A DNA stretch of 36,462 nucleotides from positions 1 to 36,462 of IMG/VR virus record IMGVR_UViG_3300017963_000158; one strand, written 5' to 3'. The DNA is from a virus. The notes under the pieces were generated by a model that was not told where the DNA came from, searched no databases, and saw only the letters and a program-made list of their open reading frames with translations. This document shows positions 1,295 through 19,111 of the stretch, piece by piece; within the stretch, counting starts at the first letter, position 1; each line of letters starts with the position of its first letter. The position numbers were made by a program, and so were the translations under genes.

Positions 1295-1299
1295 AAGTA

Positions 1300-2130: not shown

Positions 2131-2146
2131 AATTCCCCCCTCTTGG

Positions 2147-2880: not shown

Positions 2881-2897
2881 TCAAACCTCGTTTAAGC

Positions 2898-3349: not shown

Positions 3350-3360
3350 ATTTTACCTCT

Positions 3361-3597: not shown

Positions 3598-3600
3598 GTA

Positions 3601-4443: not shown

Positions 4444-4482
4444 AATAATTCCCCTCTAAATTTGTATTATTTTTTAGTATCA

Positions 4483-4529
4483 TGACAGCACAGCATGTCA
4501 GGGACTCATTCCACTGGTAACAAGTCCCT
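4483..4529 (-). promoter_or_regulatory. Tandem hairpins in the leader of the capsid gene
   Basis: The 120-bp gap between scaffold and capsid genes holds two inverted repeats: AGGGACT/AGTCCCT (4500-4506 and 4523-4529) and TGACA/TGTCA (4483-4487 and 4496-4500). They abut one another. No T-run follows, so termination is unlikely. RNA processing, message stabilisation or a promoter-proximal element would suit an abundantly needed protein. I see no convincing -35/-10 pair here. Confidence 0.5.
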
Positions 4530-4563
4530 TTTATTGTGCACTAAATATTTCTTATTGAAAACA

Positions 4564-5235
4564 CTAAGGTCGAAGTGTTACACCACGAGCAGCATAAAAC
4601 GCTTTTTTGATCTCAGGGTCCCGTCTCTGTGCGGGTGTCAACGCTTTCCATGCCTCTGTAGAAAAGTCTCCCGTACTTGCAATATTCTGTGCAGGAGTAT
4701 GATCAACACCCACTTTTTGCGGACCAAAAGCACTAGGCATTAACGACTTGATTTCTTTCGCTTGGTGCTCAACGCCTAAAACCATACGGTGTTCATCGTC
4801 ATACTTAAGAGACTTCATTTCTGCCAGTCTTACCAACCCGTCAATAGAGTCTTCTCTGGCACCCATCTCCTTAAGAGCTTTGCGGACAGATGCTCTTTTA
4901 AGATCGTCAACTTGTCGGTCCTTAGTCGTCTTAATCTCTTCTTCATATTGAAGTCTGACTTCTCTTTCTTTCTCATAAAGACCCTTATAGTCCTCTTTCT
5001 CTCTCATGGACTGTTCACGAATCTCGGTAAGTTGTCGCTCAAGATCCTGTGCTTTAGTCTTCCAATTGTTCTTTTCCGTCCAAAGCTTTTTTTGATGTTC
5101 GTTTTCATGGTTTGGTTCAACTTTCTCAATCTTAGGTGCTTCTACATTGACAGCACCGTCAGCGACGAGATCAACTGGGTTACCATTAACTGACGGTCCA
5201 AATCCTGCTGATTCTACTTTTGGTTCATTTTCCAT
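4564..5235 (-). CDS. Capsid scaffolding protein
   Basis: The start is the ATG at 5233-5235, preceded by GGGGGAGA. This removes an N-terminal extension that would overlap the upstream gene and gives 223 residues. The acidic N-terminal segment is followed by a long coiled coil rich in Glu, Lys, Arg and Gln (about residues 45-125), then a helical part with ALKEMGAREDSIDGLVRLAE. This composition, length and place just before the major capsid gene are classic for a phage scaffold. It should act inside the procapsid and be absent from mature virions. Confidence 0.8.
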   Translation of the reverse strand: MENEPKVESAGFGPSVNGNPVDLVADGAVNVEAPKIEKVEPNHENEHQKKLWTEKNNWKTKAQDLERQLTEIREQSMREKEDYKGLYEKEREVRLQYEEEIKTTKDRQVDDLKRASVRKALKEMGAREDSIDGLVRLAEMKSLKYDDEHRMVLGVEHQAKEIKSLMPSAFGPQKVGVDHTPAQNIASTGDFSTEAWKALTPAQRRDPEIKKAFYAARGVTLRP

Positions 5236-5245
5236 TTGTCTCCCC

Positions 5246-5767
5246 CTAGAAAAATATTCGTTTAATTTCAAGATCTATAATTTGCCTTACTTTGTCTTCA
5301 ATAATCTTAAATTCCTTCTTAGTTAGGGCAAGAAAAGGTCTTTTTTCTGATGCAAATTCCGCCACCATTCTATTGGTGAGTTCAGTATCATATCGGAACG
5401 TCTCTTTAATATTAATCTCAACCCCTGTTCCAACTCTCCGAAATCCCAATGCCTCTAGCATTTGCCCCGTGTATGTTAAGTTACTTCTTCTAACGCTTGC
5501 AAACTTGCCTCTAGGTCGATTCTTTTTTCTGAAATTAATATAAGTTTCTGATAGGTCATCAAGCTTTGTCTGTTCCGGAAATCTATTGGTTGCTCTATCA
5601 GCAGATCCCAATGTGTCGTCATCAACACCTTTTCCAGCTTTAACTCGCTTATAGATAATATCCACAGTTAGTTGACCGATTATATTAAGGTTCTTTCTCG
5701 ATGTAACCTGCTTAAAAAGCCTCTCTGTTCTCTTTCTAAGATCTAAAAGATCTTTATTAACCGGCAT
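5246..5767 (-). CDS. Head morphogenesis / tail completion protein (gp10/gpG-like)
   Basis: Three ATG codons follow one another. The third (5765-5767) has the best distance to GTAGGGG and gives 173 residues. Visible patterns are a helical N-terminus, RVKAGKGVDDD, a LSETYINFRKK stretch, LTYTGQMLEAL, and a C-terminal KRPFLALTKKEFKII. These match the general plan of HK97-gp10 or Mu-gpG-like virion morphogenesis proteins. The upstream gene has the same plan (Gly-rich, TG-ML motif), so the two look like distant paralogues. The gene overlaps it slightly at the start. The placement between portal and scaffold is less usual for this family. Confidence 0.6.
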   Translation of the reverse strand: MPVNKDLLDLRKRTERLFKQVTSRKNLNIIGQLTVDIIYKRVKAGKGVDDDTLGSADRATNRFPEQTKLDDLSETYINFRKKNRPRGKFASVRRSNLTYTGQMLEALGFRRVGTGVEINIKETFRYDTELTNRMVAEFASEKRPFLALTKKEFKIIEDKVRQIIDLEIKRIFF

Positions 5768-6338
5768 CATCATCCCCTACAGTAGTAGCTAATACGTTAG
5801 CAGCAAGAAGATTCTCAAATAACGCATCTAGTTCTTCTGGGTCCGCCGCTCTTTGCGTTTGAATAGCAGTTCGCAAAAGATCTTCCTCTTCTTTTTCAGG
5901 TAAACCAAAGAAGTCCCTAGGAGAAGTTCTCCCATGCTTCCCGTACCGACCGGTTATGTGTCCTTGTGCTTTGTCTCTATTGTCTTGGTCTCCGAAGTTA
6001 AAGGTGATTGTGTAACGGGTGTTTCTATTATCGATATCAGAAAGCATTGATCCCGTAAGCTTAAGATCCACCCTTCTCTTACCGCCTTTATAAATCTTGA
6101 ATTCCAAACTTTCTTTATATCCATCTGACTTATAGTTCCCCATAGACCTATTATTCTTATCTATTCCCGATGTGGTCCTTTTAATAATCTCATCTCTTAC
6201 CAGATTGGCATAAAAGAACTTCAACCCATCATTAATAAGAAGAGGTCTTAGGCGATCCCTAAGCTCCCTCTCCTCTGAGGCGTATGCTCTTTTAAAAACA
6301 TCCAGAATATTGATCTTATATTTGGGGTTGTATGCCAT
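5757..6338 (-). CDS. Virion morphogenesis protein (Mu gpG-like)
   Basis: This 193-residue protein shows IIKRTTSGIDKNNRSMGNY, VDLKLTGSMLSDI, a GHITGRYGKHGR stretch and RDFFGLPEKE, a pattern found in phage virion morphogenesis or tail-completion proteins. It overlaps the end of the portal gene by 23 nt, so translation is coupled. Its C-terminus is acidic. It probably takes part in head completion or head-tail joining. The exact role cannot be read from sequence. Confidence 0.65.
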   Translation of the reverse strand: MAYNPKYKINILDVFKRAYASEERELRDRLRPLLINDGLKFFYANLVRDEIIKRTTSGIDKNNRSMGNYKSDGYKESLEFKIYKGGKRRVDLKLTGSMLSDIDNRNTRYTITFNFGDQDNRDKAQGHITGRYGKHGRTSPRDFFGLPEKEEEDLLRTAIQTQRAADPEELDALFENLLAANVLATTVGDDDAG

Positions 6339-7779
6339 TGCCCGCTTCTTCCTCTTCTACAATATCAATCCCACGTGTTGCCACCTCTGTCTGTACAGCA
6401 AGAAACTCTCCTTTTTCTCTAAGAATCTCTTCATAAAGCTCATCAATAGCGGTGTCGTTATAGTCAGGATAATGCTTTTTGAGCTCTCTTTTAAGCGTCG
6501 TAAGCCCCACATCAAGCATTTGTTTAGAGTTTTCAACCTTCTCCTTTTGACTAAGGAGAATCTTAGGCTCTTGAAAGGAGATATTGACACTAAAAGCATC
6601 GGAAAAGTCTGAGTCTAATTCAGGTACGAGTTGATTAGTCTCCCTCCAATAGGGAATCATGTACTCGGAGAGTTTCGTCCATAGATCATTCTCAGCTTTA
6701 AAGAAATATGCCTGCTGATCTGCTTTGTCTTCTACTGACTCAGCATTGTCTAAAGCTTTAGAGATTCCCGAGATAAGATCCTCAACGCTTTGAGTTGTTG
6801 CAATAGTCTTTGCAGACAGGTTCTTGGTAGTAAGAAGCATAGACATGATATTAGCAATAAGTTGCAGGATAGCGACAATATCAATTTCCGGTTTGACTGT
6901 TCCAATCTCGGGCTTTTCTCCTCCCGGACCATACTGAAGTGAAATAACAGATGATGGGTTACCTGGAATATCCCCTACAGGGCCAATAGTCCACAATATA
7001 CTCCATGCCTGATATTTCACGGCAAATAAAAGGTCAGTTAAAACCACGGGAATCGCAATTGCTGCTTTGAGAAGATCGTCGTCGGGAATCGGATCAACTT
7101 CGTCAATGGATGTGGTTTGATAAATAAAGGGCAACTCTCCATACGGGTTTATTCCATCGACATTATCCATCTTAATCATAATCTCAGGAATAATTTGTCC
7201 GTGTCCGTTAATGACTTTATGTCCAATATCAGACCAGACAACAATAATCTGATTTTCTGGAATAACATCCCATTTCTTGATTAGCGCTACAATATTAGGC
7301 CTTGTTTTTCGGTAGGTGTCATGGGCATAAACCTCATAGCGATGTCTTGGATACAGTCTAAGCCCCGGCCATCCGTTTTCATCGATATACATCTCTATGA
7401 GAAATCTTTTAAAGAGCTTAAGATGGCGGTTTGCTTGTTTCATTATCTGATTAAGCTCAAGATAATGCTCATAATCATTCATTAACTCGGTATCTGTCTC
7501 AGATTCGTCCTCAACGGTTCTATTAGGCGCCTCAACATAAACACCAGCAAGTTTGTTAATGATTTTTTCAACGATATTAATGGGAACAAGACGACCAATA
7601 AGCTCATTAACCGTTTCTGGCTTATTAAATTCTTTATCAAGCGCCTCTCTTATAATCTCTTTGGTTTTTCCGTTGTACATGAGGTAGCGCTTATACTCTT
7701 CCTTGCGTGCTTCGATTTTATGGACGGCATTGATATCCTTTGCCACCATTTCTAGTACTTCAGTATTAAGTTCGATCAT
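6316..7779 (-). CDS. Portal protein
   Basis: This 487-residue protein has the SPP1-type portal style: a helical N-terminus with YKRYLMYNGKTKEI, a wing region with LRLYPRHRYEVYAHD, and NPYGELPFIYQ near the middle. Near residues 300-340 there is a hydrophobic helix, LQLIANIMSMLLT, before an active-site-like stem helix. The C-terminus is acidic and low in complexity. The length is typical. It follows the large terminase gene after 13 bp. It forms the dodecameric DNA channel at the capsid vertex. Confidence 0.85.
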   Translation of the reverse strand: MIELNTEVLEMVAKDINAVHKIEARKEEYKRYLMYNGKTKEIIREALDKEFNKPETVNELIGRLVPINIVEKIINKLAGVYVEAPNRTVEDESETDTELMNDYEHYLELNQIMKQANRHLKLFKRFLIEMYIDENGWPGLRLYPRHRYEVYAHDTYRKTRPNIVALIKKWDVIPENQIIVVWSDIGHKVINGHGQIIPEIMIKMDNVDGINPYGELPFIYQTTSIDEVDPIPDDDLLKAAIAIPVVLTDLLFAVKYQAWSILWTIGPVGDIPGNPSSVISLQYGPGGEKPEIGTVKPEIDIVAILQLIANIMSMLLTTKNLSAKTIATTQSVEDLISGISKALDNAESVEDKADQQAYFFKAENDLWTKLSEYMIPYWRETNQLVPELDSDFSDAFSVNISFQEPKILLSQKEKVENSKQMLDVGLTTLKRELKKHYPDYNDTAIDELYEEILREKGEFLAVQTEVATRGIDIVEEEEAGNGIQPQI

Positions 7780-7792
7780 ATGCCCCCCAGCA

Positions 7793-9067
7793 TTATGCCC
7801 AGCTTGTGATTTTTGTTTCTGGAATCTTAACTAGTGGTTCATACCACCAAGCGAGATAACCAAGACAGTCAGAGATGTGTGTTAAGAGAGGATCTGTCTT
7901 TTGATCTAGCTTGTTATCTTTCCAGCTCACTTTTTCCAAGTCATTAATTAATTTCTTGCAACTGGGATCTATTATAATACGCCCGTCTTGCAATAGTCGA
8001 TTCACGTTATTAACTCTATCGGAAACGAATGGGTTATAGGTCTTTTCAACCCGCATTCCTGACCCTTGTAGAATAAGAAAATCCGATTGACCGGATGTTT
8101 TTCTATTTCTACCGGTTGAATCGGGAATTATTCGCCCTTGGAGATTGTTTCTTAGGATATAATCTCTCATTTTGTATGTGTCAGAGTTGCGAAGAAATGC
8201 TTCACTAAAGATATAGAGCTTATCGTCTCGTATTTGCCCAAAAACTGCCGTCATGGGATCAACGTTAAAGTCCATACCAATGAGAATCTCACCATTAAGG
8301 CGTTGCACTGGTGCGGTGTGGTCGTCTCTTCTAAATGAGTAGTAAGCAATTCCATCATCGGCATCACTAAACTCTCCTCGCAAGAATCGTGCTTGGTCTT
8401 TTTCCGACATAGATTTGAGGAGATTTATATAGTCCTCGTCTATGTTCTCAAGGTTGTCAGTGGGGTTCATAAGCAAAGATTCGTAGTTTTCTGGATTAGC
8501 TAAAGGTTCATTGTCCTCTGGTTGAAGCTTTTTAATAAACATCCAGTACGACCAATGTGTTTTGACCGGAGGATTGCAATCATAATATGCTTTTTTTGCC
8601 AGAGTATTTTTTTCAGCTAACCGCGTCTTAGCAATACCCACAGAGCTACTATTTATTTGAGAAGATTCGTTGAAGTACATAGTGGAGTATTCGTTTCCGA
8701 GGATCTTTTCTACTCTTTCCTTATCATCTAATCCACCTACCCAAATTTCAGAACCATTTGGAAGCTTAAGGAAATAGTCTGATTTGTTATAATTTTTCTC
8801 GGTTATTCCCAGATGAGGAAAGCATGTTGTGACGACCTTTGGAAGTGTATCAAGCCATATAGAGCGCTTGGCATGGTTGAATTTGAACCTAAGAATGCAG
8901 TGACGGCTTTTTACCTTAGAGGCACGTACTAATATGGCATAAACAAGAATAAAAGTTTTACCTGAACGAGACCCTCCAAAAAGCATAATATCTTTTGCTT
9001 TTGAGATGAGTAGCTTTACGGCCTCTTTTTGTTTGTCTGTTTTTTTAAAGACAACAGATACGCTCAT
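7793..9067 (-). CDS. terL: Terminase large subunit
   Basis: This 424-residue protein has a Walker A of the form GGSRSGKT (residues 31-38) and a Walker B ending YFNE (131-134) with the catalytic Glu. Its RNase H-fold nuclease residues are Asp266 (GMDFNVD), Asp316 (IPDSTG) and Asp400 (HISDCLGY). It overlaps the small terminase gene by 4 nt (ATGA). The motif style matches the Terminase_3/6-type large subunits. If it packages by headful, as many relatives do, the circular permutation seen at the window ends is explained; that step is inference. Confidence 0.92.
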   Translation of the reverse strand: MSVSVVFKKTDKQKEAVKLLISKAKDIMLFGGSRSGKTFILVYAILVRASKVKSRHCILRFKFNHAKRSIWLDTLPKVVTTCFPHLGITEKNYNKSDYFLKLPNGSEIWVGGLDDKERVEKILGNEYSTMYFNESSQINSSSVGIAKTRLAEKNTLAKKAYYDCNPPVKTHWSYWMFIKKLQPEDNEPLANPENYESLLMNPTDNLENIDEDYINLLKSMSEKDQARFLRGEFSDADDGIAYYSFRRDDHTAPVQRLNGEILIGMDFNVDPMTAVFGQIRDDKLYIFSEAFLRNSDTYKMRDYILRNNLQGRIIPDSTGRNRKTSGQSDFLILQGSGMRVEKTYNPFVSDRVNNVNRLLQDGRIIIDPSCKKLINDLEKVSWKDNKLDQKTDPLLTHISDCLGYLAWWYEPLVKIPETKITSWA

Positions 9068-9417
9068 AGCTTTTCGTCATCAACATCAATTTTGATTTTA
9101 GGCATTTTAATGTTTTGATCGATATCTGCTTTGTCTTTCCAGCCACAAAGATTTTTAAGACAGAAGATAAGCATCACATTATCGCCTTTTTCTGCTTTTT
9201 TTATGGCCGTTCTGATAAGCGAAAAGCGTGTGTGCACCATATTTTGCTCACGAAATTCCGCAAAGGTACAGTTATAATTGTTTTTGATGTGGCGCTCTAT
9301 GGTGTCATGCGAAACGCCTAAAAATGCTTCGCAGTCCGCCATGGTAGGTTTTAGACGCAGGATCGCCTTTAATTGACGGTCTTTTTCTTCGTCAATTAAC
9401 TTTGGTTTAGTTTTCAA
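9064..9417 (-). CDS. terS: Terminase small subunit
   Basis: This 117-residue protein has an N-terminal helix-turn-helix (about residues 22-47, FLGVSHDTIERHIKNNY) and a C-terminal GDNVMLIFCLKNLCGWKDK stretch. That stretch is the hallmark of many phage small terminases. The start is a TTG with GGAGGGG at normal distance. It directly precedes the large subunit and overlaps it by 4 nt. It should recognise the packaging start on viral DNA. A pac site is often within or near this gene, but none could be located by eye. Confidence 0.8.
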   Translation of the reverse strand: MKTKPKLIDEEKDRQLKAILRLKPTMADCEAFLGVSHDTIERHIKNNYNCTFAEFREQNMVHTRFSLIRTAIKKAEKGDNVMLIFCLKNLCGWKDKADIDQNIKMPKIKIDVDDEKL

Positions 9418-9439
9418 ATTGTCCCCTCCTAAGTAGTAC

Positions 9440-9931
9440 CTAGAGATTGCTATCGATCTCCCAAAAGTTAATGAGATCTATTTTCTCCTTAGAAACATCT
9501 TCTTGTTCAAAAATCTTCTTCGCCATAAACCTTTTTTCGTCCAAAGATGTTTGCCTAGTGTACTGATTAAACAAAGCTTCGTCGTTAGAACGATGAACGT
9601 TAAAGAGCCAAGTATAGTAGTTTGTCCATCCATTGTAACATTTCTCGGCATCTTTAAGATGTATAGCGAAAACTTTGGGTGTGTTTAAGTGCTCGGGATA
9701 CTTTTCGGGTGGGTAATGATTAGGAACGACCTCGATTTTTTCAATCATTGCGGACATTTTAAGGTCTTTGTAGTAGCGGTTATAAAATATAATGAACTTA
9801 AGATTACCGTGAACAAGAGCTTTTAAATAATAATTAGAAAATTTACGATACTCGACTTTCTTCTCTCCACTAAGAATCTGGTCAAAATAAATCTTCTTTA
9901 ATCCAAGTTTAACTGTATTTCGCACGTTCAT
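9440..9931 (-). CDS. ASCH-domain protein with C-terminal WTNYxTW domain
   Basis: I choose the ATG at 9929-9931 (163 residues) because AAGGA lies 8 nt upstream. The ATG at 9952 overlaps a -10 box. Residues 6-95 look like an ASCH/PUA-type domain (LGLKKIYFDQILSGEKKVEYR, conserved Glu-Tyr-Arg, then a VFAIHL strand), a fold that binds RNA or modified bases. Residues 99 onward (NGWTNYYTWLFNVHRSNDE) match a small phage family of unknown role often annotated DUF7249. The fusion is unusual. The gene leads the late block next to terminase. Confidence 0.65.
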   Translation of the reverse strand: MNVRNTVKLGLKKIYFDQILSGEKKVEYRKFSNYYLKALVHGNLKFIIFYNRYYKDLKMSAMIEKIEVVPNHYPPEKYPEHLNTPKVFAIHLKDAEKCYNGWTNYYTWLFNVHRSNDEALFNQYTRQTSLDEKRFMAKKIFEQEDVSKEKIDLINFWEIDSNL

Positions 9932-9950
9932 ATTCCAATCCTTTTTCTGC

Positions 9951-9978
9951 ATTATACTCTATAACGCAACGGTATAAA
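9951..9978 (-). promoter_or_regulatory. Candidate promoter of the late block
   Basis: On the minus strand a perfect TATAAT (9951-9956) lies 16 bp from TTTATA (9973-9978). Transcription would start about 13 nt before the chosen start codon of the ASCH gene at 9931. The -35 box is weak, so an activator or modified polymerase may be needed. The box overlaps the alternative ATG at 9952, which supports the later start. Confidence 0.5.
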
Positions 9979-10006
9979 AGGGATATGCACACGTAATATT
10001 AGCTAT

Positions 10007-11107
10007 TTAGATTGATTTTCCGATATATTTAAAGGTAAACGTTTTTACTTTAGACCTGGAACCCTTATTTAGTCTTCCGTATACAATCGCTTTTTTCATC
10101 TTTCTATCGACTGCAATAAGCTTCCATTTAGGGTTTTTAATTCTTGATAAATACATAGGCACCGATGAAAACTTTGCCATAATCTCATAGCCATATTTAT
10201 CAATGAGATATTCGGCCGTTTTTTCCACGAGAAGATTACCTAAACCAAAGCCTATGTAGTCCGGATGTATTACAACCCGGTTTGAGTGCATTTTAAATGT
10301 TTTATCTGTTGGTCTTTTGGGGACATAATTTGTAAATGCCCCAAAGCCGACTTGCTCATCATCCTTAAACAAACCAAAAAAATGAGATTTCCCTCTCGAT
10401 ACTGACTCACTCAGATAATGATACTTGCTAAAGTATTTCCATGTTGATTTATCGACTTCTTTAATTGTGAACTCGAGCTTTTCTGAGCGTTGCCAAACCG
10501 ACCTCCGATGTTCGAGGTACTCTTGTTTATTACAATCAATGATCCAGTCGGGTTTTAGCCATTCGATTACGTCGTAATGGCATGCGATAAGTACAATGCA
10601 CTTATCGGTCTTTCTTGCATATTTTTGAATGGAATGACTCATGACTTTTGCCACCGTCCGATCCACAACAGATGTCCACTCATCAATAACAGACACCTCA
10701 TCGTTTTCAATCATAGCAAGAACGGCCTCTGCTCTTGCTTGTTGACCGTTTGAAAGTGTCCCAGCGGGTCTAATCCAGCATGGAACAGAAGTTAGGCCTA
10801 TACCAGACAATGCCTTTGCACAGTCGTTATAGGGCATGTTTTCGGGCAATTGATTGATGACAGGTTTAGACTTATCTAATCTGCTTCTTAAACTCTCCTC
10901 ACCCCAGATTTCTCTTGCAAGGGTTGTCTTTCCTGAGCCTGAGGCGCCAACAATAAGACCAATATTAAATGGTGTAGTGACATCTGCCTTTACTTCTAAG
11001 TGATGCTTAAGTTTTTTCTCAATATCTATGTCTAGTGCATCGGCAGCTTTTTGTGTCCTAAAGTTGATGACTGGATCAGATTTGAGGTCTACGACATAAG
11101 TTTGCAT
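10007..11107 (-). CDS. ABC-type ATPase fused to GNAT acetyltransferase domain
   Basis: This 366-residue protein has an ABC ATPase in residues 40-195: Walker A GASGSGKT (54-61), signature LSNGQQ (118-123), Walker B SVIDEW (139-144) and H-loop His177. Residues 220-366 have a GNAT-like plan with YHYLSE (229-234), a VVIHPDYIG strand and the acyl-CoA loop GFGLGN (286-291). The same fusion is known as COG2401. It has no membrane segment, so it is not a transporter. It overlaps the ParB-like gene by 19 nt. The GNAT part recalls Mom-type DNA modification proteins, but that link is inference. A role in DNA modification or in tRNA or protein acetylation is possible. Confidence 0.75.
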   Translation of the reverse strand: MQTYVVDLKSDPVINFRTQKAADALDIDIEKKLKHHLEVKADVTTPFNIGLIVGASGSGKTTLAREIWGEESLRSRLDKSKPVINQLPENMPYNDCAKALSGIGLTSVPCWIRPAGTLSNGQQARAEAVLAMIENDEVSVIDEWTSVVDRTVAKVMSHSIQKYARKTDKCIVLIACHYDVIEWLKPDWIIDCNKQEYLEHRRSVWQRSEKLEFTIKEVDKSTWKYFSKYHYLSESVSRGKSHFFGLFKDDEQVGFGAFTNYVPKRPTDKTFKMHSNRVVIHPDYIGFGLGNLLVEKTAEYLIDKYGYEIMAKFSSVPMYLSRIKNPKWKLIAVDRKMKKAIVYGRLNKGSRSKVKTFTFKYIGKSI

Positions 11108-11625
11108 TTAATTTCCCTTGTCTGGAACTCTTGAAATAGATCCTGTTGCTCCAGTTCGTCTGAACATTCAATAAGGATTAGGTATTGTTCTTCATCTAGG
11201 ATATCTTTAACTGATGTTTCTTTCTCAGGATCTTCTACAACAAACTTTTTAATACCTAAGACCTCTGTATCAAAGTCTGGCATATCTCCTAGTTTGTTAA
11301 TAACAGCATCCATGTCGAGATCTGACCATCTTGCTATTTCATTATCTGCTGTCATATCAGCATACTCTTTTTCATCTGAGTCATAGTCATGATAGATAAC
11401 AGGAACCTCTTTGAGCTTGAGCTTTTTTGCTGCTTCGTATCGTGCATGTCCTTTAACAATATATCCTGATCTATTAGATACGATTATGGGTGATCTCCAG
11501 CCATTGTACTTAATGATCTTTACCAAGCGTTTTATCTGATCATTTGAGTGCATATTGTTATTGTTTGGGTTTGGTTTGAGATCTTCTATGGGAATTAGCT
11601 TATCGTAGATACCGTGAAACTTCAT
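11089..11625 (-). CDS. ParB-like N-terminal-domain protein
   Basis: This 178-residue protein shows the ParB/sulfiredoxin-like fold pattern: IEDLKPNPNNNN near residues 13-24, a helix with IKRLVKIIKYNGWRSPIIV, then GHARYEAAKKL (59-69). This is the GH-R variant common in phages. The stretch TADNEIARWSDLDMD resembles the linker in ParB-methylase fusions, but no methylase follows. It lacks the helix-turn-helix of chromosomal ParB. It is translationally coupled to the ABC-GNAT gene downstream, so the two probably act together. Confidence 0.75.
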   Translation of the reverse strand: MKFHGIYDKLIPIEDLKPNPNNNNMHSNDQIKRLVKIIKYNGWRSPIIVSNRSGYIVKGHARYEAAKKLKLKEVPVIYHDYDSDEKEYADMTADNEIARWSDLDMDAVINKLGDMPDFDTEVLGIKKFVVEDPEKETSVKDILDEEQYLILIECSDELEQQDLFQEFQTREIKCKLMS

Positions 11626-11706
11626 TTATGCCCCTCTATTAATGGTATTCGACGATTTAACAAAATGTGTTCTAAAATGGCAAAAATATGTTCTTGGAGG
11701 AACACC

Positions 11707-12531
11707 ATGAAAACCTTATTTCTCATTCTCTCATTTCTTTTCGTAAGCTCTTGCTCAGCTAATGGAGAATGGTCCGGTCATACTATGCAAAGAGAGAAGA
11801 AGGTTTGTGTGGTGGGAGATACAGGAATGGGGACAAAAGAACAGGATAAGGTAGCAGATGCCATGCACAATCATGGGTGTACGGATATCTTAATTGCTGG
11901 AGATGTTATTTATCCCAGTGGACTAATCTCCATGAATGACAAAGACTTTAAGCTGAAGTTTTTGGATCCTTATAAAACTCTCTTTAAGAAAGCGACCTTT
12001 TATCCTGCTCTAGGCAATCATGACTATTACGGCAAGCAAGAGGTGTGGTTAACCATAGGGGAGAGTTATCCTCAAATTCATTTTCCCCACTATTGGTACA
12101 AGTTTGTCATTGGCGACACGTGCTTTTTTGCGATTGACACCAATTGGTACAAGATCAAGATGTATAAATGGCTCAGATCTGAGCTTAAAAAAAACAAGGG
12201 TTGTCGAAAAAAGATTGTCTTCGGACATCACCCCTATAAGTCCTCAGGGTCTCATGGTGATGCTAATCCTGCACGCAAGCTTCTAATGCGCTACGGGTTT
12301 ATGGGAAAAGCTGATCTCTATATAGCAGGGCATGATCACCAGTTAAGTGATGAGGGGATAGTCAGAGGGACACGTCAGCTTATTTCTGGTGCAGGGGCAA
12401 AGCTTCGTCCACTTAAGAAGAATCCTGAGTGGGGAGTATCTGAATTAGGTTTTGTTTCCTTAGATCTTAAAGAAATGACTTATACGTTTATTAACTACAA
12501 GGGTGAGGTGCTTTACTCGGGCGGGTTTTAG
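11707..12531 (+). CDS. Secreted lipoprotein, purple acid phosphatase-like
   Basis: The ATG at 11707 has GGAGG six bases upstream and gives 274 residues. The N-terminus is a lipoprotein signal peptide (Lys2, hydrophobic core, lipobox Val-Ser-Ser-Cys16). Ser at +2 favours outer-membrane sorting in Gram-negatives. All five metallophosphoesterase motifs are present: GDTG (37-40), GDVIY (65-69), GNHD (103-106), GHHP (173-176) and GHDH (208-211). The GDxxY form points to purple acid phosphatase. The gene lies on the plus strand between minus-strand genes, an accessory moron arrangement. The substrate is unknown: phosphate scavenging or surface change are possible. Confidence 0.85.
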   Translation: MKTLFLILSFLFVSSCSANGEWSGHTMQREKKVCVVGDTGMGTKEQDKVADAMHNHGCTDILIAGDVIYPSGLISMNDKDFKLKFLDPYKTLFKKATFYPALGNHDYYGKQEVWLTIGESYPQIHFPHYWYKFVIGDTCFFAIDTNWYKIKMYKWLRSELKKNKGCRKKIVFGHHPYKSSGSHGDANPARKLLMRYGFMGKADLYIAGHDHQLSDEGIVRGTRQLISGAGAKLRPLKKNPEWGVSELGFVSLDLKEMTYTFINYKGEVLYSGGF

Positions 12532-12540
12532 TTCAATATT

Positions 12541-12819
12541 TCACCCGAACCACTCCCTTATGTTTTCCTCTTGCTCTACCTTATTCCATATCGCCTGAGC
12601 ACGGTCATTATCGTTTAGATAGTCTTCATAAGTAAGACCCAGGTCAATAGCTCTATTACAATAGCGCTCAAACTTTTTAAGCTCAGCAAGACCCAAGGGA
12701 TCTTGCCGGTCCATAATAACCTGATAGACCCGTTCATCTAATCGATTGAAACAATACTCAGCAACAATGTTCTTAGCGTTTTCTGCCACATATTTTCGTA
12801 TAGCTTCATCATCTGTCAT
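12541..12819 (-). CDS. Small hypothetical protein
   Basis: This 92-residue, acidic, helix-rich protein has several Tyr and Asp residues (for example NDNDRAQAIWNKVEQEENIR near the end). Its start overlaps the stop of the upstream gene by 4 nt (ATGA). It ends 9 bp from the oppositely oriented phosphatase gene. No family is recognised and no membrane segment is present. Confidence 0.65.
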   Translation of the reverse strand: MTDDEAIRKYVAENAKNIVAEYCFNRLDERVYQVIMDRQDPLGLAELKKFERYCNRAIDLGLTYEDYLNDNDRAQAIWNKVEQEENIREWFG

Positions 12820-13415
12820 TGAAATACCCTACATTCAGAAAGATGGACCTTAAAATCTTTAACCTGACACCAGGCAAACATCCTACGCCTTCTTTCAATA
12901 ATTGTTTCCACTAAAGGGGCAGTAGGAAGCTCTAGGCAATCTTTCCATTCATAAAACTTGATCAATTGACCGTCGTCGCAAATAAGAAAGTCGGAATCTG
13001 ATGTCCCAACTCCGTATCTGTACTCTTCTGGCATCAACGAGGTCATATTGAGAGAGTAAAGATAGGTCTTATACGGGGAGAGTTTAGTTCTGTAGACAAA
13101 TCCATGTGGCAAAAAGTCAGTCAGATCAAAATGATCCTTAAACTCTATTGCCCCCTTTGTCTCTTCATCAAACTCCCTCAAGGCGCAGACAGTGGGAAGC
13201 TCATTCTTATGCATTTTTCCCGTAACAAGACTAGGAAAAGCAAAGTCTGGTAAAGGAAGTTGACCCAACATAATTGGAGATAGCTCGGATATATTGTGTC
13301 GTGAGTTATGGACACTTATATCCTCTTCGATAGTGGTCATTTTTTCGCATCTAAGCATCACGTAAGTATTGCAGTCCTCTCCATAGTAAAAGGGAAGAAG
13401 AGCAATGTTATCCAT
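12816..13415 (-). CDS. Nudix hydrolase-like protein
   Basis: The preferred start is the ATG at 13413-13415, which overlaps the previous stop (ATGGATAA). It gives 199 residues; an ATG 24 nt earlier is possible. A Nudix-box-like motif runs from Gly66 through Glu72, Arg80-Glu81 and Glu84-Glu85 to Gly88. The usual box has one residue between Glu-Glu and Gly, here there are two, so the box is one residue longer than standard. Nudix enzymes cleave nucleoside diphosphates linked to another group (dNTPs, NAD, ADP-ribose, caps). The substrate cannot be inferred here. Confidence 0.65.
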   Translation of the reverse strand: MDNIALLPFYYGEDCNTYVMLRCEKMTTIEEDISVHNSRHNISELSPIMLGQLPLPDFAFPSLVTGKMHKNELPTVCALREFDEETKGAIEFKDHFDLTDFLPHGFVYRTKLSPYKTYLYSLNMTSLMPEEYRYGVGTSDSDFLICDDGQLIKFYEWKDCLELPTAPLVETIIERRRRMFAWCQVKDFKVHLSECRVFQ

Positions 13416-13926
13416 CGCTATCAAGCTTTCTCTCGACATCAGCAAGATGTTTTTGGGACTGCTTGATCATGTTTTCCATACGGCCAAGCTGGGTGTGGTA
13501 GTTGCCCATGATGTAGTTGAGCTGTTTTTTTATCTCTTCCATCATTCTTTCTTTGAAAGCGTCTATTTTCTCCTGCTCTTGATACTCTTCGTTAATGAAT
13601 TTGGTTACAAGAATCTCAAAATGTGAGCTGAAGAGACCGTCTTTGGCGTACCAGTCATAAACATTAACCTTAGCGTCATGGTTTTTGATTTCTACTTCTT
13701 TTTGCTCAAGCATCCTTGTAGGAACAGTGACAATAAATCGACAAACATGATGTTCACCAGTGGACTTGAAGTCATAGGTATAAAACTCGTATCCAATAGA
13801 GGATTTATCGTCATCGTAAAACTCTTTTAGTTTTTCGTTTTCAAAAATAACCCTCTCTATACATGCATACAAAACCTTGGCCGTAAGCTTTACCGACTCT
13901 CTATGCTTCTTATTATCTATCTTCAC
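13408..13926 (-). CDS. Hypothetical protein with C-terminal coiled coil
   Basis: This 172-residue protein has a mixed alpha/beta N-terminal part (FYTYDFKSTGEHHVCRFIVTV). Residues 105-170 are a strongly charged heptad-like helix that should form a coiled coil. It sits 3 bp after the preceding gene and is coupled to the Nudix-like gene. No family is recognised. Oligomerisation or a regulatory scaffold role is possible. Confidence 0.6.
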   Translation of the reverse strand: MKIDNKKHRESVKLTAKVLYACIERVIFENEKLKEFYDDDKSSIGYEFYTYDFKSTGEHHVCRFIVTVPTRMLEQKEVEIKNHDAKVNVYDWYAKDGLFSSHFEILVTKFINEEYQEQEKIDAFKERMMEEIKKQLNYIMGNYHTQLGRMENMIKQSQKHLADVERKLDSDG

Positions 13927-13929
13927 AAC

Positions 13930-14274
13930 TCACTCCTCTATAAATTCACTGGTATAAACATTCTCGGTCTTTTGTGTCTTGCCTATCATTTCTTTACCTA
14001 AGTGCTCATGAATCTCTTCGTACACTTGTTTTTGAAACAAGGAATGATCCTCTAAAAAAGAATTGTTCTTCAGATAAAAGTTCGCCTTCATTCGGGATTC
14101 AAACCACTCTTGTGAAACATTCTCAGTGACTTGGTGAAAGTTTCGCTGGTTAAGGTCAAATCTAAGCATCATAAAGCGCTCAAAGCGATCTCTTGACTCT
14201 TCTATATAGCGAAGAAACAAACTCTCCTCTTCTTCTAGGTACTTGTTTAGAGCATCAATTTGAATTTGATTCAT
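13930..14274 (-). CDS. Helical hypothetical protein
   Basis: This 114-residue, mostly alpha-helical protein is rich in Glu, Phe and Arg (RDRFERFMMLRFDLNQRNFH). A good ribosome site (AAGAAGG) precedes the ATG. No motif or family is recognised. It is in the same closely packed minus-strand operon as its neighbours. Confidence 0.6.
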   Translation of the reverse strand: MNQIQIDALNKYLEEEESLFLRYIEESRDRFERFMMLRFDLNQRNFHQVTENVSQEWFESRMKANFYLKNNSFLEDHSLFQKQVYEEIHEHLGKEMIGKTQKTENVYTSEFIEE

Positions 14275-14284
14275 TAAACCTTCT

Positions 14285-14797
14285 TTATGTCGGGGTATGC
14301 ATATCAGGAATTAATTCTGCGTTTATATCTTTAATCTGTCTAATTTCTTTTATAGCGTCAGTGTTCCATATACACCCTGAGGAGACATCCCAACCATAAA
14401 AAGCATCAAGCTCTGGCACCATAAGTGTAGCGCTATGGTCAAAACCTATGATCTCAATACCGCTATATGTTTCAGAGACCTTGCCCCAATTGATCATTTT
14501 ATTGGCAAGACACTGAGGGACAGAATCATCAACCTTGACCTTATACTTTTTGATGAATGCATAAAGCTGAGACATTGTCAGAGTAATTATTTTGTCCTCG
14601 TGCAAGATAAGCTCAAACTTATTCTTGAGCTCATTAAGTCTAAATTCTTGATCCCTGCACCATTGCTCCCATTCATCGTTTATGGAGTACCAAAGACCAT
14701 GGGGTTTAAGGGAGAAGTTCTTAACTGTCTGGTTTTTTTGTTGAGAGACGTTGACTGGTTCTAATTTATTATCTGAAGCGTAATGAATTCTTTTCAC
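14285..14797 (-). CDS. Conserved phage protein of the GLWYS/SGCIW type
   Basis: It starts with GTG, preceded by AAGGA, and has 170 residues. It carries a recurring phage and bacterial pattern: KPHGLWYS (32-39), W-x-x-W-C, a central YAFIKKY stretch, a W-x-x-V-x-x-x-Y-x-GIEI stretch, and FYGWDVSSGCIWN near the end. I know this pattern from uncharacterised proteins and cannot name a tested function. An ADP-ribosyltransferase-like fold has crossed my mind but is not shown by catalytic residues. It leads the minus-strand block away from the divergent control region and its start codon lies in a hairpin arm. Confidence 0.6.
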   Translation of the reverse strand: MKRIHYASDNKLEPVNVSQQKNQTVKNFSLKPHGLWYSINDEWEQWCRDQEFRLNELKNKFELILHEDKIITLTMSQLYAFIKKYKVKVDDSVPQCLANKMINWGKVSETYSGIEIIGFDHSATLMVPELDAFYGWDVSSGCIWNTDAIKEIRQIKDINAELIPDMHTPT

Positions 14798-14835
14798 TCG
14801 TAATCCTTGGTTGGTTCGCTATATTTATTACGAGT
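14796..14835 (-). promoter_or_regulatory. Inverted repeat around the start of the 14797 gene
   Basis: ACTCGTAAT (14796-14804) and ATTACGAGT (14827-14835) pair perfectly over 9 bp. On the minus strand the arm covers part of the ribosome site AAGGA and the GTG start. The loop contains CCAACCAAGG, a word shared with two hairpins near 16.9 kb. A weak promoter (TTGCCC, 17 bp, TAAATA) overlaps the outer arm. The element could be an RNA operator or a protein-binding site. Confidence 0.5.
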
Positions 14836-14866
14836 TAAGATCGAGGGCAAGCTCTCTATTCTAAAT

Positions 14867-14893
14867 AATAATTATTTGACTTATTCAGAATAA
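14867..14893. promoter_or_regulatory. Two AT-rich palindromes in the divergent control region
   Basis: AATAATTATT (14867-14876) and TTATTCAGAATAA (14881-14893, centred on one A) are perfect short palindromes in the 221-bp gap 14798-15018 between divergent genes. They are candidate operators. AT-rich palindromes arise by chance more often than GC-rich ones, so the evidence is moderate. Confidence 0.4.
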
Positions 14894-14960
14894 TCCACAT
14901 CCCTAATGATTCTAGAGGGATAGAGCGTACGTGATTTTAGCTACTTAGCGAGGAGGAGGG

Positions 14961-14989
14961 TTGGAATAAATGACTTTTCGCGTTATAAT
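14961..14989 (+). promoter_or_regulatory. Strong sigma70-type promoter for the 15019 gene
   Basis: TTGGAA (14961-14966) and a perfect TATAAT (14984-14989) are spaced by exactly 17 bp. The start of transcription would be near 14996, giving a leader of about 23 nt with AAGGGGG before the ATG. This is the clearest promoter in the window. Confidence 0.75.
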
Positions 14990-15018
14990 AGACTATCGAA
15001 ATAAAAAAGGGGGACATT

Positions 15019-15303
15019 ATGGATTTAACTAATTTTTATTTACGTCTAGATGACTTAACTAATGGTCAATGCGCTACGATGATCGAGGACATTATTAGCG
15101 GAAATCAAAACGAGCTTCTAGACTGCTTAGAGAAAGACTCTAAAGAGACTCTAGGCATTAACTTCTATCTAGAGACTTATATGGAGTCTGTTAGAGTTCT
15201 TAAAACGGCATTAGATAGACTTGGTCTTAAAAACGATAGCACGATTAAGGCCCATTTAATTAATCTCGAGTTAAACGCTAAGCTCGCATACTGCTACTTA
15301 TAA
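15019..15303 (+). CDS. Small acidic early protein of unknown function
   Basis: This 94-residue, acidic, Leu-rich and probably all-helical protein has two Cys in the first half. It is a single-gene unit with a near-consensus promoter, a G-rich ribosome site and a strong terminator. Its codon choice is unusual for the window, with many CTA and TTA leucines, so CTAGA and TTAGA words abound. No family is recognised. Isolated, strongly expressed, acidic small proteins in phages often act against host proteins or regulate the phage, but that is inference. Confidence 0.75.
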   Translation: MDLTNFYLRLDDLTNGQCATMIEDIISGNQNELLDCLEKDSKETLGINFYLETYMESVRVLKTALDRLGLKNDSTIKAHLINLELNAKLAYCYL

Positions 15304-15311
15304 CTAGACCC

Positions 15312-15330
15312 CTTTAGACTTAGTCTAAAG
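15312..15330. promoter_or_regulatory. Perfect 19-bp inverted repeat after the 15019 gene
   Basis: CTTTAGACT and AGTCTAAAG pair perfectly around one T. It sits between the stop codon and the terminator. It may be a protein-binding operator or a second hairpin protecting the message. Confidence 0.5.
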
Positions 15331-15339
15331 TTTCGATAG

Positions 15340-15377
15340 ACGGGGCATGACTAGCGATAGAAATGCCCCGTTTTTTT
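15340..15377 (+). terminator. Intrinsic terminator, usable on both strands
   Basis: ACGGGGCAT (15340-15348) pairs with ATGCCCCGT (15363-15371) over 9 bp with a 14-nt loop and is followed by seven T (15371-15377). It ends the 15019 transcript. The convergent minus-strand gene stops at 15376, inside the T-run. Confidence 0.85.
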
Positions 15378-15849
15378 ATTCGTTACACTCAGGGCAAATA
15401 ATATCTCTATATTCTGATTCTATTTTCTTTAACTGAATATTTAGAAAGTCGGCCTCTTCTTTTTGTGAATTGAGATCGTTGGTCATTTCTTCTATTAACT
15501 CGAGATGCATTCTATATTTGATACACATATGCATATGGGTCTTTAAAATTTCGTCTATCTTATCCATTCTATCGCAATGATCATCATAGTCATCTTGTTC
15601 AAAACCATCATCTAAGTGATCATCATTAGTTTCTGGATAAAGTGTTGCCCCAATAGTATCTATGCCCTCTTCTTTATTCTTAGATGGAACTATGCCGCCC
15701 TCATCAAACTTAACCTTATCTTTAAACCATCTCGATATAGTAGCTGAAGTTGTCCCTATTATCTCAGCTACTTCTTTGAATGTTTGTCCTTTATTTACCA
15801 TTTTAACTGCTCTGTTTTTTGTTTTTTGATCGAATCTTTTTCCTGGCAT
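15376..15849 (-). CDS. Transposase-type HTH regulator
   Basis: This 157-residue protein has residues 5-45 forming a helix-turn-helix of the IS3 OrfA/Hin style (RAVKMVNKGQTFKEVAEIIG, then SATISRWFKDK). The middle is very acidic with many Asp and His, and residues 95-150 are probably a coiled coil. The last residues contain CPECNE, half of a zinc-binding pair. There is no transposase catalytic domain nearby, so it is probably a regulator. It is divergent to the early plus-strand operon and convergent with the 15019 unit, as a phage switch gene would be. AAAGGGG precedes the ATG. Confidence 0.7.
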   Translation of the reverse strand: MPGKRFDQKTKNRAVKMVNKGQTFKEVAEIIGTTSATISRWFKDKVKFDEGGIVPSKNKEEGIDTIGATLYPETNDDHLDDGFEQDDYDDHCDRMDKIDEILKTHMHMCIKYRMHLELIEEMTNDLNSQKEEADFLNIQLKKIESEYRDIICPECNE

Positions 15850-16151
15850 TTGAAACCCCTTTAAATGGAATGGCCACCTTCATGTGTATGAGATTTTTCT
15901 TATATATGAACAACTAAAAAATAAAAACCCATAGAGCACACACCCTGCTGGCTTTTAACGTTGCCTCAGGGAGTGCATATTATAATTTTTATTTTTTTTA
16001 TTTATTAATGAATATCTATTTATTGAGTAAGTACTTACTATCATGGATCACTAAATAATTCTTTTCGTAAATTAAATTAATTAACTTATACATAGGCCTT
16101 GCACTATTTCCCGACCTGGGGCATAAGACAGTTGACACAAGGAGACAAGGT
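15850..16151. other. AT-rich divergent intergenic region with a 14-bp palindrome
   Basis: This 302-bp gap carries no plausible gene. AGTAAGTACTTACT (16026-16039) is a perfect palindrome and a candidate operator for the adjacent HTH protein. Bases 15978-16110 are very AT-rich with runs of T and a TTAATTAA site, suitable for a promoter or for DNA unwinding at an origin. TATAAT occurs near 15981 without a well-spaced -35. CCCTG and CAGGG (about 15943-15971) form a weak inverted repeat. I cannot fix the promoter of the 16152 gene. Confidence 0.5.
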
Positions 16152-16799
16152 ATGAATTTGACTAGCACTATTCTTAAGTTACGGACGGAACAAACAAAAA
16201 AAGTAGAGTTGGATTTAGCAATAGAAACGATAGAGAAATTAAAAAATAATTTTTCACCTTTTACACTTTCTGAGGTCATCGAAACTCTAGCAAGTGACTT
16301 TATTTTGAGTAAAGAAACTCAATCAGTTGATAAGGAAAACGTAAAAGAAATACCCAAAAAAAAAGAAAGTGTTGTTTCTCATATGGAGATAACAAAAGAC
16401 TTTGATCCGACCAAGATGGTTAGCACTAATAAAAAATACGGAATGATAGACGAGTGGAAAAGATTTATAGAGACAAAAGAAGGTATAGCTATTACTGAAA
16501 AACTCTTAGAGAGATGCTCTCATAAAGTTCAAATTGAATGGTTTAATAAATATGACGGCGCTTTTCTTGTAAAGCACCTGAAGTATATCCATAAGGCATT
16601 AGATGAAGGGATAATTAAACCAACAAAAAACAAGGGCAACTTCTCTCAAATCTTTACAAACTATCTAAGAAGAACAAAAGAGGATGAGGAGTCTAGAAAT
16701 AGACTTAATAGCACACTTAATCATTCAATGTTTTCGCCTAGACAAAGGCTAGAGATACCAAAAAACTATAAATCAAAGGCGTATAATAGAGCTTCATAA
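16152..16799 (+). CDS. Early protein, possible replication-associated
   Basis: This 215-residue, Lys- and Glu-rich protein has a helical N-terminus (1-60), a short low-complexity linker with a Lys run (about 75-80), and a helical C-terminal domain (YDGAFLVKHLKYIHKAL, then FSQIFTNYLRRTK). No known domain is recognised. It is the first gene of the early strand, next to an AT-rich region and followed by its own terminator. These features would suit an origin-binding or helicase-loading protein, but this is a guess. Ribosome site: AAGGAGA. Confidence 0.65.
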   Translation: MNLTSTILKLRTEQTKKVELDLAIETIEKLKNNFSPFTLSEVIETLASDFILSKETQSVDKENVKEIPKKKESVVSHMEITKDFDPTKMVSTNKKYGMIDEWKRFIETKEGIAITEKLLERCSHKVQIEWFNKYDGAFLVKHLKYIHKALDEGIIKPTKNKGNFSQIFTNYLRRTKEDEESRNRLNSTLNHSMFSPRQRLEIPKNYKSKAYNRAS

Positions 16800-16800
16800 A

Positions 16801-16839
16801 AAAACCCTCGAGCGTTCAGAGATTCCGCTCAAGGGTTTT
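16801..16839 (+). terminator. Terminator after the 16152 gene
   Basis: AAAACCCT (16801-16808) pairs with AGGGTTTT (16832-16839), and GAGCG with CGCTC, with one mismatch between them and an 11-nt loop. The terminal T-run is part of the stem, and the hairpin begins right after the stop codon. Confidence 0.75.
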
Positions 16840-16843
16840 CAAA

Positions 16844-16862
16844 TTGTCCCAACCAAGGACAA
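16844..16862 (+). promoter_or_regulatory. Hairpin with CAACCAA loop before a two-codon minigene
   Basis: TTGTCC and GGACAA pair over 6 bp around the loop CAACCAA. AAGGA, partly in the 3' arm, is followed 6 nt later by ATG TCT TGA (16865-16873), an open frame of only two codons. The arrangement repeats that of the hairpin at 16942-16959 with a different stem sequence. Confidence 0.5.
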
Positions 16863-16941
16863 CTATGTCTTGAATCCTTATGCATGAATAATTAATCTAT
16901 TTCAACATCTTTCTTTTATTTTGGTCTTGTGTCATATTCTG

Positions 16942-16959
16942 ATCTCCCAACCAGGAGAT
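16942..16959 (+). promoter_or_regulatory. Hairpin enclosing the ribosome site of the 16964 gene
   Basis: ATCTCC and GGAGAT pair over 6 bp around the loop CAACCA. The 3' arm is the Shine-Dalgarno sequence, and the ATG follows 4 nt after the stem. Translation of the annealing protein may therefore be controlled at the RNA level. The loop sequence matches the upstream hairpin while the stems differ with pairing kept. Confidence 0.5.
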
Positions 16960-16963
16960 ATTT

Positions 16964-17635
16964 ATGCAATATATGGAAGTGTTCTACCTACACGGCCGCC
17001 CTTACATCAAAGCTTCACATAAACTAAAAAAGTTTAAAGAAGATCCCCGCTATGCCCACTGGCGCATCAATACAGAGGTTTTAGAAAACACCGAGACCTA
17101 TGCCGTCGTTAAGGCATCAATCATTGACCACAACGGAACAGTCATGGCAACCGGACACTCTCGGGAGGATGTCCATACATCTGAAGTCACACAAACATCA
17201 TTCCTTGAATGTGCAGAAACATTTGCCGTCGGAAGAGCGCTATCTTTCCTCGGTATGGGGCTTGAAGAAATGGGACCATACGAGATTTGCTCTAAAGAAG
17301 AGTATGAAGTGGCAAAAGAAAAGCAAAAAGATACCCGCAAGAAAAAGAAGGCCGAAAAAAAGAAGAAAGAAGAAGAACAAGAAACAATAACAACAAGGCA
17401 GGGCACCACTCTGCTTCACCTCGCTAAAGATGCCGGATTGACAGACGATCAAGATCGTTTAGATTTCCTAGAAGAGTTTGGAGTCAAAGACTTTGATCAT
17501 ATAAAGAAAGAAGACTTTGAAAGAGCTAAAACTCTCCTCGAAGGCGAGAAGAAGGAATACCTCGCTTATAAAGAAAAAAGAAAACATAAATTCAAGGAAG
17601 ATTTAACCGTCACATATGACGAAGAGGACTTCTAA
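16964..17635 (+). CDS. Putative single-strand DNA annealing / recombination protein
   Basis: This 223-residue protein has residues 10-110 following a pattern common in phage recombination genes: VVKASIIDHNGTVMATGHSRED, with the conserved ECAETFAVGRALSFLGMG following. I associate this with Rad52/ERF-like single-strand annealing or binding proteins. The middle (about 112-145) is a long run of Lys and Glu. The C-terminal part is helical and may be a helix-hairpin-helix-like module (DAGLTDDQDRLDFLEEFGVK). It leads an operon that ends with a RusA-like resolvase, which fits. The family assignment is not certain. Confidence 0.55.
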   Translation: MQYMEVFYLHGRPYIKASHKLKKFKEDPRYAHWRINTEVLENTETYAVVKASIIDHNGTVMATGHSREDVHTSEVTQTSFLECAETFAVGRALSFLGMGLEEMGPYEICSKEEYEVAKEKQKDTRKKKKAEKKKKEEEQETITTRQGTTLLHLAKDAGLTDDQDRLDFLEEFGVKDFDHIKKEDFERAKTLLEGEKKEYLAYKEKRKHKFKEDLTVTYDEEDF

Positions 17636-18018
17636 TGGGTGCTGGCAAAACGTATTCGCCTGAATTTAAACAACGTGTTGTAAAAATCTTTCTTGAAGAG
17701 GGTATGACCTATGCGGCCCTTTCCTCTCGATTTGGAGTTACTGGTTCGACGATTAAGAACTGGGTTAAAGAACACCTAGTTGCTACAGACTCAAGTGACG
17801 ATAAGAAAGATGCTCGTAAGGTCAAAATGTTTCTTAATGACCTTTCGATGATTTTTAAAAAGCATAATGTGACCCCCGATGAAGCTGAGTACCGTATTGA
17901 AGAAAGAAAAGCTTGTTTTGACATTTCTTTTTTTATTTTTGACATCAATACAAATCTATTAACTGGCAAAGAGCTTCAAGACCACTTTCAAAAGCGAATG
18001 GCAGGGGTGCGCTCATGA
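17635..18018 (+). CDS. Transposase-type HTH protein, early operon
   Basis: This 127-residue protein has residues 5-45 as an IS3 OrfA-like helix-turn-helix (YSPEFKQRVVKIFLEEGMTY, then GVTGSTIKNWVKEH). The rest is helical. Its ATG overlaps the previous stop (TAATG). It resembles the HTH of the 15376-15849 product but with a different C-terminus. With no transposase or inverted repeats nearby, it is probably a DNA-binding regulator or replication factor. Confidence 0.7.
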   Translation: MGAGKTYSPEFKQRVVKIFLEEGMTYAALSSRFGVTGSTIKNWVKEHLVATDSSDDKKDARKVKMFLNDLSMIFKKHNVTPDEAEYRIEERKACFDISFFIFDINTNLLTGKELQDHFQKRMAGVRS

Positions 18019-18314: not shown

Positions 18315-18315
18315 T

Positions 18316-18863: not shown

Positions 18864-18885
18864 AACAAATTCCTTTATTTAGTCA

Positions 18886-18918: not shown

Positions 18919-18923
18919 AAGCT

Positions 18924-19109: not shown

Positions 19110-19111
19110 TC

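Follow-up and report, generated by a model that had tools for sequence, protein, structure and literature searches.

A ParB-like gene and an overlapping gene for an ABC ATPase-GNAT fusion, located just upstream of terminase in a virus genome of 36,462 bp (an entire IMG/VR record, referred to as the window in the rest of the text), probably act as the writer module in a phage cassette for DNA modification, whose substrate and chemistry we infer. We favor this reading because known DNA modifiers occupy the same slot beside terminase in related phages, the ParB-like protein bears a C-terminal tail specific for its enzyme partner, an ASCH-like gene is associated with the module, and the two genes make up a near-obligate pair with a conserved overlap. 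That the pair modifies or marks phage DNA, as the original prediction had proposed, is very probable from the slot exchange, the ParB tail and the ASCH neighbour; the connections drawn at the same time to Mom kinship and to an enriched 8-mer did not stand.

Both genes are on the minus strand. The ParB-like gene (11089-11625) codes for a 178-aa protein of the ParB/Srx fold, which matches ParB_N (E=1e-8) and phrog_498/620 (E 1e-30) and lies directly upstream of the ABC-GNAT gene in most relatives, and the fusion gene (10007-11107) codes for 366 aa. The two reading frames overlap by 19 nt (11089-11107, ATGCAAAC..ATG..TAG), exactly as had been noticed before, and the ATGCAAA.. start of the fusion gene falls within the ParB codons for ..CK(L/I)M. 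The slot is anchored by the genes for the terminase small subunit (9064-9417; phrog_309, E=1.5e-5) and large subunit (7793-9067; Terminase_3, E=5.5e-14), also on the minus strand. Positions 1-20000 of the window have no near relative among named phages. The G..H.R motif of the ParB-like protein reads GHARYEA. Its architecture is not that of a canonical ParB, as it consists of ParB_N and a short tail, with neither a central HTH nor a C-terminal dimer domain, and its partner is ABC-GNAT, not parA. On the plus strand, opposite in direction to the cassette, lies a gene (11614-12531) for a phosphoesterase of the calcineurin type that carries a lipobox-like signal (LFVSSCSA); taken as its longest ORF, this gene overlaps the start of the ParB-like gene.

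Direct reading of the fusion protein revealed every motif announced by the original prediction, that is, the complete ABC set and a GNAT acyl-CoA loop. The ABC ATPase domain (aa 1-205, 10493-11107; ABC_tran, E=1e-7) contains a Walker A GASGSGKT (aa 54, 10925-10948), the signature LSNGQ (aa 118, 10742-10756), a Walker B with the catalytic Glu (VIDE, 10679-10696), the D-loop SVVDR and the H-loop CHYD with His177 (codon 10577-10579). It is a compact NBD with no coiled-coil insert and no membrane partner, and matches NBDs in the PDB with Z~14.7. The GNAT acyltransferase domain (aa 206-366, 10010-10492; Acetyltransf_1, E 2.6e-7 to 9e-7) carries the acyl-CoA loop HPDYIGFGLG and an HYL motif (10412-10420). 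AlphaFold modelled the full protein with pLDDT 89 and pTM 0.83, and the GNAT domain alone with pLDDT 89. Alignment of 44 ABC-GNAT homologues revealed 26 invariant columns, which include the Walker A G/K, signature S/G, Walker B D/E and H-loop His of the ABC domain, as well as Trp223, Tyr231, Leu232, Arg277, Pro282, Gly286 and Trp328 of the GNAT domain. Several database records label the protein a siderophore or hemin importer, and its ABC domain structurally matches transporter NBDs; nevertheless, a misannotated ABC transporter subunit is scarcely credible. Neither protein has a membrane segment (the 19-residue Kyte-Doolittle mean never exceeds 0.92), in agreement with the earlier remark that the fusion lacks a membrane part, GNAT is fused or adjacent, the partner is a ParB-like protein, and a census of neighbours at 117 loci, in which no permease recurs, contradicts such a role.

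Protein searches detected ABC-GNAT in at least 63 phage records from very different hosts, among them Pasteurella (56% identity), Leptospira (48% identity), Lactococcus, Streptococcus, Gordonia and Porphyromonas, along with hundreds of matches in bacterial genomes and 851 matching plasmid records, mostly phage-plasmid-like and with the ABC part only. The survey for the same gene pair that the original prediction had called for covered 80 viral and 80 bacterial-genome loci, 76 of each with enough upstream sequence, and placed ParB directly upstream of ABC-GNAT in 63/76 of the viral loci and 56/76 of those from bacterial genomes. Most close relatives share an overlap of ~19 nt, which also recurs across phyla, in distant phages and in prophages of distant bacteria. 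Since the pair and its overlap recur at such distances and 26 columns are invariant, the association is not due to chance; the pairing of ParB with ABC-GNAT is ancient. ABC and GNAT are separate adjacent genes in some Gram-positive phages and in Tenacibaculum phage pT24, and ParB is missing in Vibrio vB_VmeM-32, Nonlabens P12024S and one AT-rich lineage, which weighs against the reading favored here.

The census of 117 non-redundant loci counted ParB in 90, TerL in 54 (<=3.5 kb downstream) and TerS in 20; ASCH genes turned up in ~22 of the loci, and 8 had a formyltransferase-like gene. The proximity of TerL, and the ABC-only versions that adjoin terminase in SSU5-type phage-plasmids, would suit an aid to packaging or segregation in which the ParB-like protein and an SMC-like ABC ATPase help terminase to find or compact DNA, with GNAT as an accessory. 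We consider this very improbable, as the GNAT motif residues are invariant, terminase is distant in some carriers, and the Mom and MTase genes that occupy the same slot are base modifiers. In two SSU5-type phage-plasmids (L006:5336-8070 and L007:5363-8015), ParB-ABC precedes terminase and is followed by a phrog_886 protein with no recognisable Pfam GNAT domain; this likewise counts against the favored reading, and the ABC-ParB core may work with another effector.

The exchange of enzymes in the slot emerged from a second sample, composed of relatives of the window that were selected by terminase, independently of the pair. Between ParB and terS, the alternatives to ABC-GNAT were known DNA modifiers confirmed by Pfam: Mom (L145, L147, L197 and others, E 1e-39 to 1e-50), a C5-MTase (L151, L176), an N4/N6-MTase fused to ParB (L159, L183, L194) or a TAGT glycosyltransferase (L144, L188, L209), accompanied in a single case, L209, by a TET/JBP dioxygenase. 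Split ABC and GNAT genes occupied the slot in L155 and L156. The TET/JBP-TAGT, C5-MTase and ParB-N4/N6-MTase cassettes thus share with the window the ParB-like N-domain and the place upstream of terS/terL, and differ from it by the enzyme in the slot and by the ParB C-terminus. Two actinobacterial phages, Microbacterium phage Antuna and Arthrobacter phage Sonny, also pair Mom with a ParB-like gene: in the regions L130:2469-3621 and L134:1145-2561, mom adjoins that gene or lies close by, and the ParB-like protein has a CPxC tail.

A third sample consisted of 30 ParB genes selected by ParB similarity alone, with two single ParB sequences as queries. About 28 of the 30 were fused to or beside a base-modification gene. 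The partners, labelled from profile or sequence hits and in the deazaguanine case partly by eye, were ~17 N4/N6-MTases (fused or adjacent), 7 TAGT, 2 Mom and 1 C5; the remaining ParBs comprised one with ABC-GNAT, one in a deazaguanine-type cluster with QueC and one directly before terS. Hence ParBs of this type accompany DNA-base modifiers, ABC-GNAT being one alternative among them. In L367 (3471-6684) the ParB-like gene heads the deazaguanine-type cluster, partly assigned by eye: it is followed by a gene for a 285-aa protein that looks DpdA-like by eye and has no Pfam hit, by QueC (Pfam), and by FolE-like and QueD-like genes.

The C-terminal tail of the ParB-like protein (aa 142-178, 11092-11202 on the minus strand, ending in EEQYLILIECSDELEQQDLFQEFQTREIKCKLMS) is specific for ABC-GNAT. 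A tail HMM trained on one half of the tails from ABC-GNAT-paired ParBs matched 47 of the 48 ParBs of the held-out half and none of 20 ParBs from Mom, TAGT, C5 or N4/N6 modules; in these comparisons the groups are partly non-independent, and the frame overlap encodes the final six residues. Part of the conservation at the tail end may consequently be a coding constraint. ParBs of the other modules end differently, several in a CPxC knuckle. Among the 30 loci selected by ParB similarity, two carried the tail, one with ABC-GNAT and one, L335, without the module, which looks like loss of the enzyme. The N-domain of the window ParB is 54% and 48% identical to those of Mom-paired ParBs, and the tail only 6%, whereas with the ABC-GNAT-paired ParB of L016 identity is 29% in the N-domain and 42% in the tail. 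Against most ABC-GNAT-paired ParBs the N-domain reaches 27-35% (50-51% for the nearest kin) and the tail up to 62%. Because the N-domain is nearer to Mom-paired ParBs than to most ABC-GNAT-paired ones and the tail nearer to the latter, the tail follows the enzyme and the N-domain follows the phage lineage.

The GNAT domain had been linked to Mom, yet profile, Pfam and structure comparisons placed it no closer to Mom than ordinary GNATs are. It scored 17.0 bits against Pfam Mom (PF25680) for a cut-off of 27.1, and 9 of 37 family members matched that entry weakly. Scored with the family profile, single Mom sequences gave 14-35 and 28 housekeeping GNATs, taken as controls, 11-45, so that the Mom values fall within the control range. 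Profile-profile alignment of the GNAT family with Mom by hhalign was weak (Prob 45%), with only the HY motif and an Arg ((L)NR) co-aligning, and a Mom model came at rank 17 in a viral fold search with the GNAT domain. We thus rejected membership in the Mom family, given the score below the Pfam cut-off, the weak profile match and a distance no smaller than that of control GNATs. Its position makes Mom a functional analogue: in phage Mu it is a GNAT-fold predicted base modifier, and Mom genes occupy the same ParB-terS slot and pair with ParB-like genes. Unlike ABC-GNAT, Mom lacks an ABC domain, and a canonical acyl-CoA loop is not obvious in its part of the alignment; Mom-paired ParBs end in other tails.

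The best solved structural match of the GNAT domain was RimI (Z=13.0), tied with dozens of others, and the fold is that of a generic GNAT; a sequence search of solved structures with the GNAT profile returned generic GNATs only. Profile and structure searches found no clear kinship with any nucleic-acid acylator, nor did the domain group clearly with tRNA or protein acetyltransferases, a grouping that the original prediction had set against a role in DNA modification. The resemblance to protein acetyltransferases such as RimI, together with the protein-modifying phage GNATs described in PMC7824862, lends some weight to acylation of a protein (host RNA polymerase, a nucleoid protein or terminase), with ParB and ABC steering the enzyme on DNA for host takeover, as with phage Rac. 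The tie with dozens of GNATs weakens the RimI argument, however, and neither the exchange with several kinds of DNA-base modifier nor the partner-specific ParB tail would be expected of a protein acylase, which makes this explanation unlikely.

Between the pair and terS, the window encodes a putative reader of modified bases (9440-9952, minus strand), with an N-terminal ASCH-like domain (Pfam ASCH, E=0.006, sub-threshold) and a DUF7249-like C-terminus. Our ASCH HMM recovers the window copy at 5e-19, with this copy being one of the seed sequences of the HMM. An ASCH gene was found near ABC-GNAT in 14/80 viral, 19/80 bacterial and 3/15 named loci (36/175 in total), and the same HMM found it in none of 79 TerL-selected loci, nearly all of them without ABC-GNAT. 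In diverse lineages these genes mostly abut the 3′ end of ABC-GNAT in convergent, overlapping orientation; the window copy is co-directional. The family profile matches the ASCH domain of human ASC-1 (PDB 2e5o, E 2.3e-15); the window copy alone is weak, with its Pfam ASCH value of 0.006. The N4-acylcytidine amidohydrolase YqfB uses a Thr24-Lys21-Glu74 triad and Arg26 (PMC6972931). In the ASCH family, K31, E34 and R36 are invariant, so that, by the spacing of the K..x.R motif and not by alignment with YqfB itself, Lys and Arg are kept and an invariant Glu takes the position of Thr24. A YqfB-type eraser was thus rejected, since the Thr nucleophile is not among these residues; by analogy with the published inference for GNAT-EVE-ASCH operons, the protein is a likely reader of a modified base.

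Those (PIN)-GNAT-EVE + ASCH operons, for which base acetylation and modified-base binding were predicted (PMC7641849), resemble the window in combining GNAT with an ASCH gene, and differ by having EVE/PIN in place of the ABC ATPase, a defence or prophage context, and no reported ParB. Combinations of GNAT, ASCH and NTPase also figure in the toxin-antitoxin and conflict systems predicted in the same work, and ParB-fold proteins may have nuclease activity, hence the alternative of a defence, anti-defence or toxin-like module with ABC as sensor, GNAT as effector (e.g. acylating tRNA or nucleotides) and ParB as nuclease or regulator. We regard this as decidedly improbable: the layout is not that of a toxin-antitoxin system, and self-marking is the better fit to a location that in many phages adjoins terminase and to a slot exchanged with Mom, MTases and TAGT.

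Base modification by this family has been predicted before. A GNAT-ABC ATPase system for acyl modification of a DNA base, with pT24 as an example, is described in PMC7824862, which cites Iyer et al. 2013 NAR; a literature search found no experimental test of that prediction. The window has the features of the family, namely a GNAT coupled to an ABC ATPase whose Walker A, signature, Walker B and H-loop are intact, and the homologue in pT24 shares 36% identity (E 9e-45), making the two systems members of one protein family with the same predicted function. In pT24, ABC and GNAT are split and no ParB was detected, whereas in the window they are fused and ParB-paired. In its passage on GNAT-ABC, PMC7824862 makes no mention of ParB, a partner-specific tail, slot exchange or ASCH. 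The modular cassette and the tail specificity may therefore be the new part, the base-modification function having already been predicted. A precedent for the ParB partner is DpdB, a ParB-like ATPase acting with DpdA in the insertion of 7-deazaguanine bases (PMC12839542); it likewise joins a ParB fold to a DNA base-modification enzyme, which exchanges bases instead of acylating them, with no ABC-GNAT involved.

For the DNA-modification module that we favor, we infer DNA as the substrate, its acylation, the target base, the role of each subunit and the protection conferred. The ParB/Srx-fold protein would serve as a common platform, a predicted NTPase partner, for several phage DNA modifiers, with its short tail binding the ABC-GNAT enzyme, and synthesis of the two proteins would stay coupled through the overlap of their frames. 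The ABC domain could dimerise on ATP as a DNA clamp or switch, allowing GNAT to move an acyl group from acyl-CoA to the amino group of a base, for which adenine N6 or cytosine N4 would be the chemically plain choices. Acylation may occur late in infection, beside the packaging genes, such that the packaged DNA would resist host nucleases, and the ASCH-like protein would probably recognise the modified base.

We also put forward, as quite possible but short of probable, that there is one exchangeable cassette of ParB plus writer beside terminase, in which the ParB/Srx N-domain acts as universal adaptor to chemically unrelated modifiers (methylation, Mom, hydroxymethyl-glycosylation, ABC-GNAT), swappable tails choose the enzyme, and the ABC-GNAT version writes a new N-acyl base read by the ASCH protein. 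If true, this would provide a new DNA base modification and would account for the frequent association of phage DNA modifiers with ParB-like genes. For a widespread phage gene that is often mislabelled an iron or hemin transporter, and whose function has stayed a prediction for more than ten years, the exchange of enzymes in the slot and the ParB tail that goes with one partner raise sharp questions, i.e. which base is acylated and whether ParB chooses the enzyme.

In the 8 non-redundant loci mentioned above, ABC-GNAT is followed or overlapped by a gene of the formyltransferase fold (Formyl_trans_N); examples are L013:6119-6592 and L015:6092-6709, and others occur in L071, L080, L091, L279, L282, L288 and L295. 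Its product may modify the acyl group further. Twice, in Porphyromonas and Pseudomonas phages of Mu-like appearance, ABC-GNAT lies after the tail genes, beside the formyltransferase-like gene and without ParB; in phage Mu, mom is the last gene, beyond the tail-fibre region, and we count this placement in favor of DNA modification.

The 8-mer GGAGAGTT/AACTCTCC, which had been tentatively connected with the module, occurs in 38 copies in the window for ~1.4 expected. In 60 second-order Markov simulations, the largest count was 23 for any 8-mer and 5 for GGAGAGTT. The sites are dispersed over both strands (e.g. 10898, 19041, 19071), and 35 of the 38 fall within ORFs; we rejected a function as ribosome-binding site given this position within genes and on both strands. 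The suggested survey, once run, dissociated the enrichment from the module: GGAGAGTT was not enriched in TerL relatives (0-5 copies) nor in almost all ABC-GNAT carriers, hence the enrichment is not shared by relatives with or without the module and is a separate feature. Of the top 8-mer-scoring loci, L156, L159, L138 and L169 owe their rank to coding tandem repeats; among the highest-scoring loci, dispersed motifs were found only in the window, in L063 (AACCGCAC) and, on one strand, in L074. One inverted pair of GGAGAGTT/AACTCTCC lies at 19041-19071 of the window. L063 (1-21113) is another ABC-GNAT phage, in which AACCGCAC is dispersed on both strands in 13 copies for 0.3 expected. Near a virion structural gene, the window also codes for a permuted papain-like amidase (34992-35558, minus strand; Peptidase_C92, E 2e-21).
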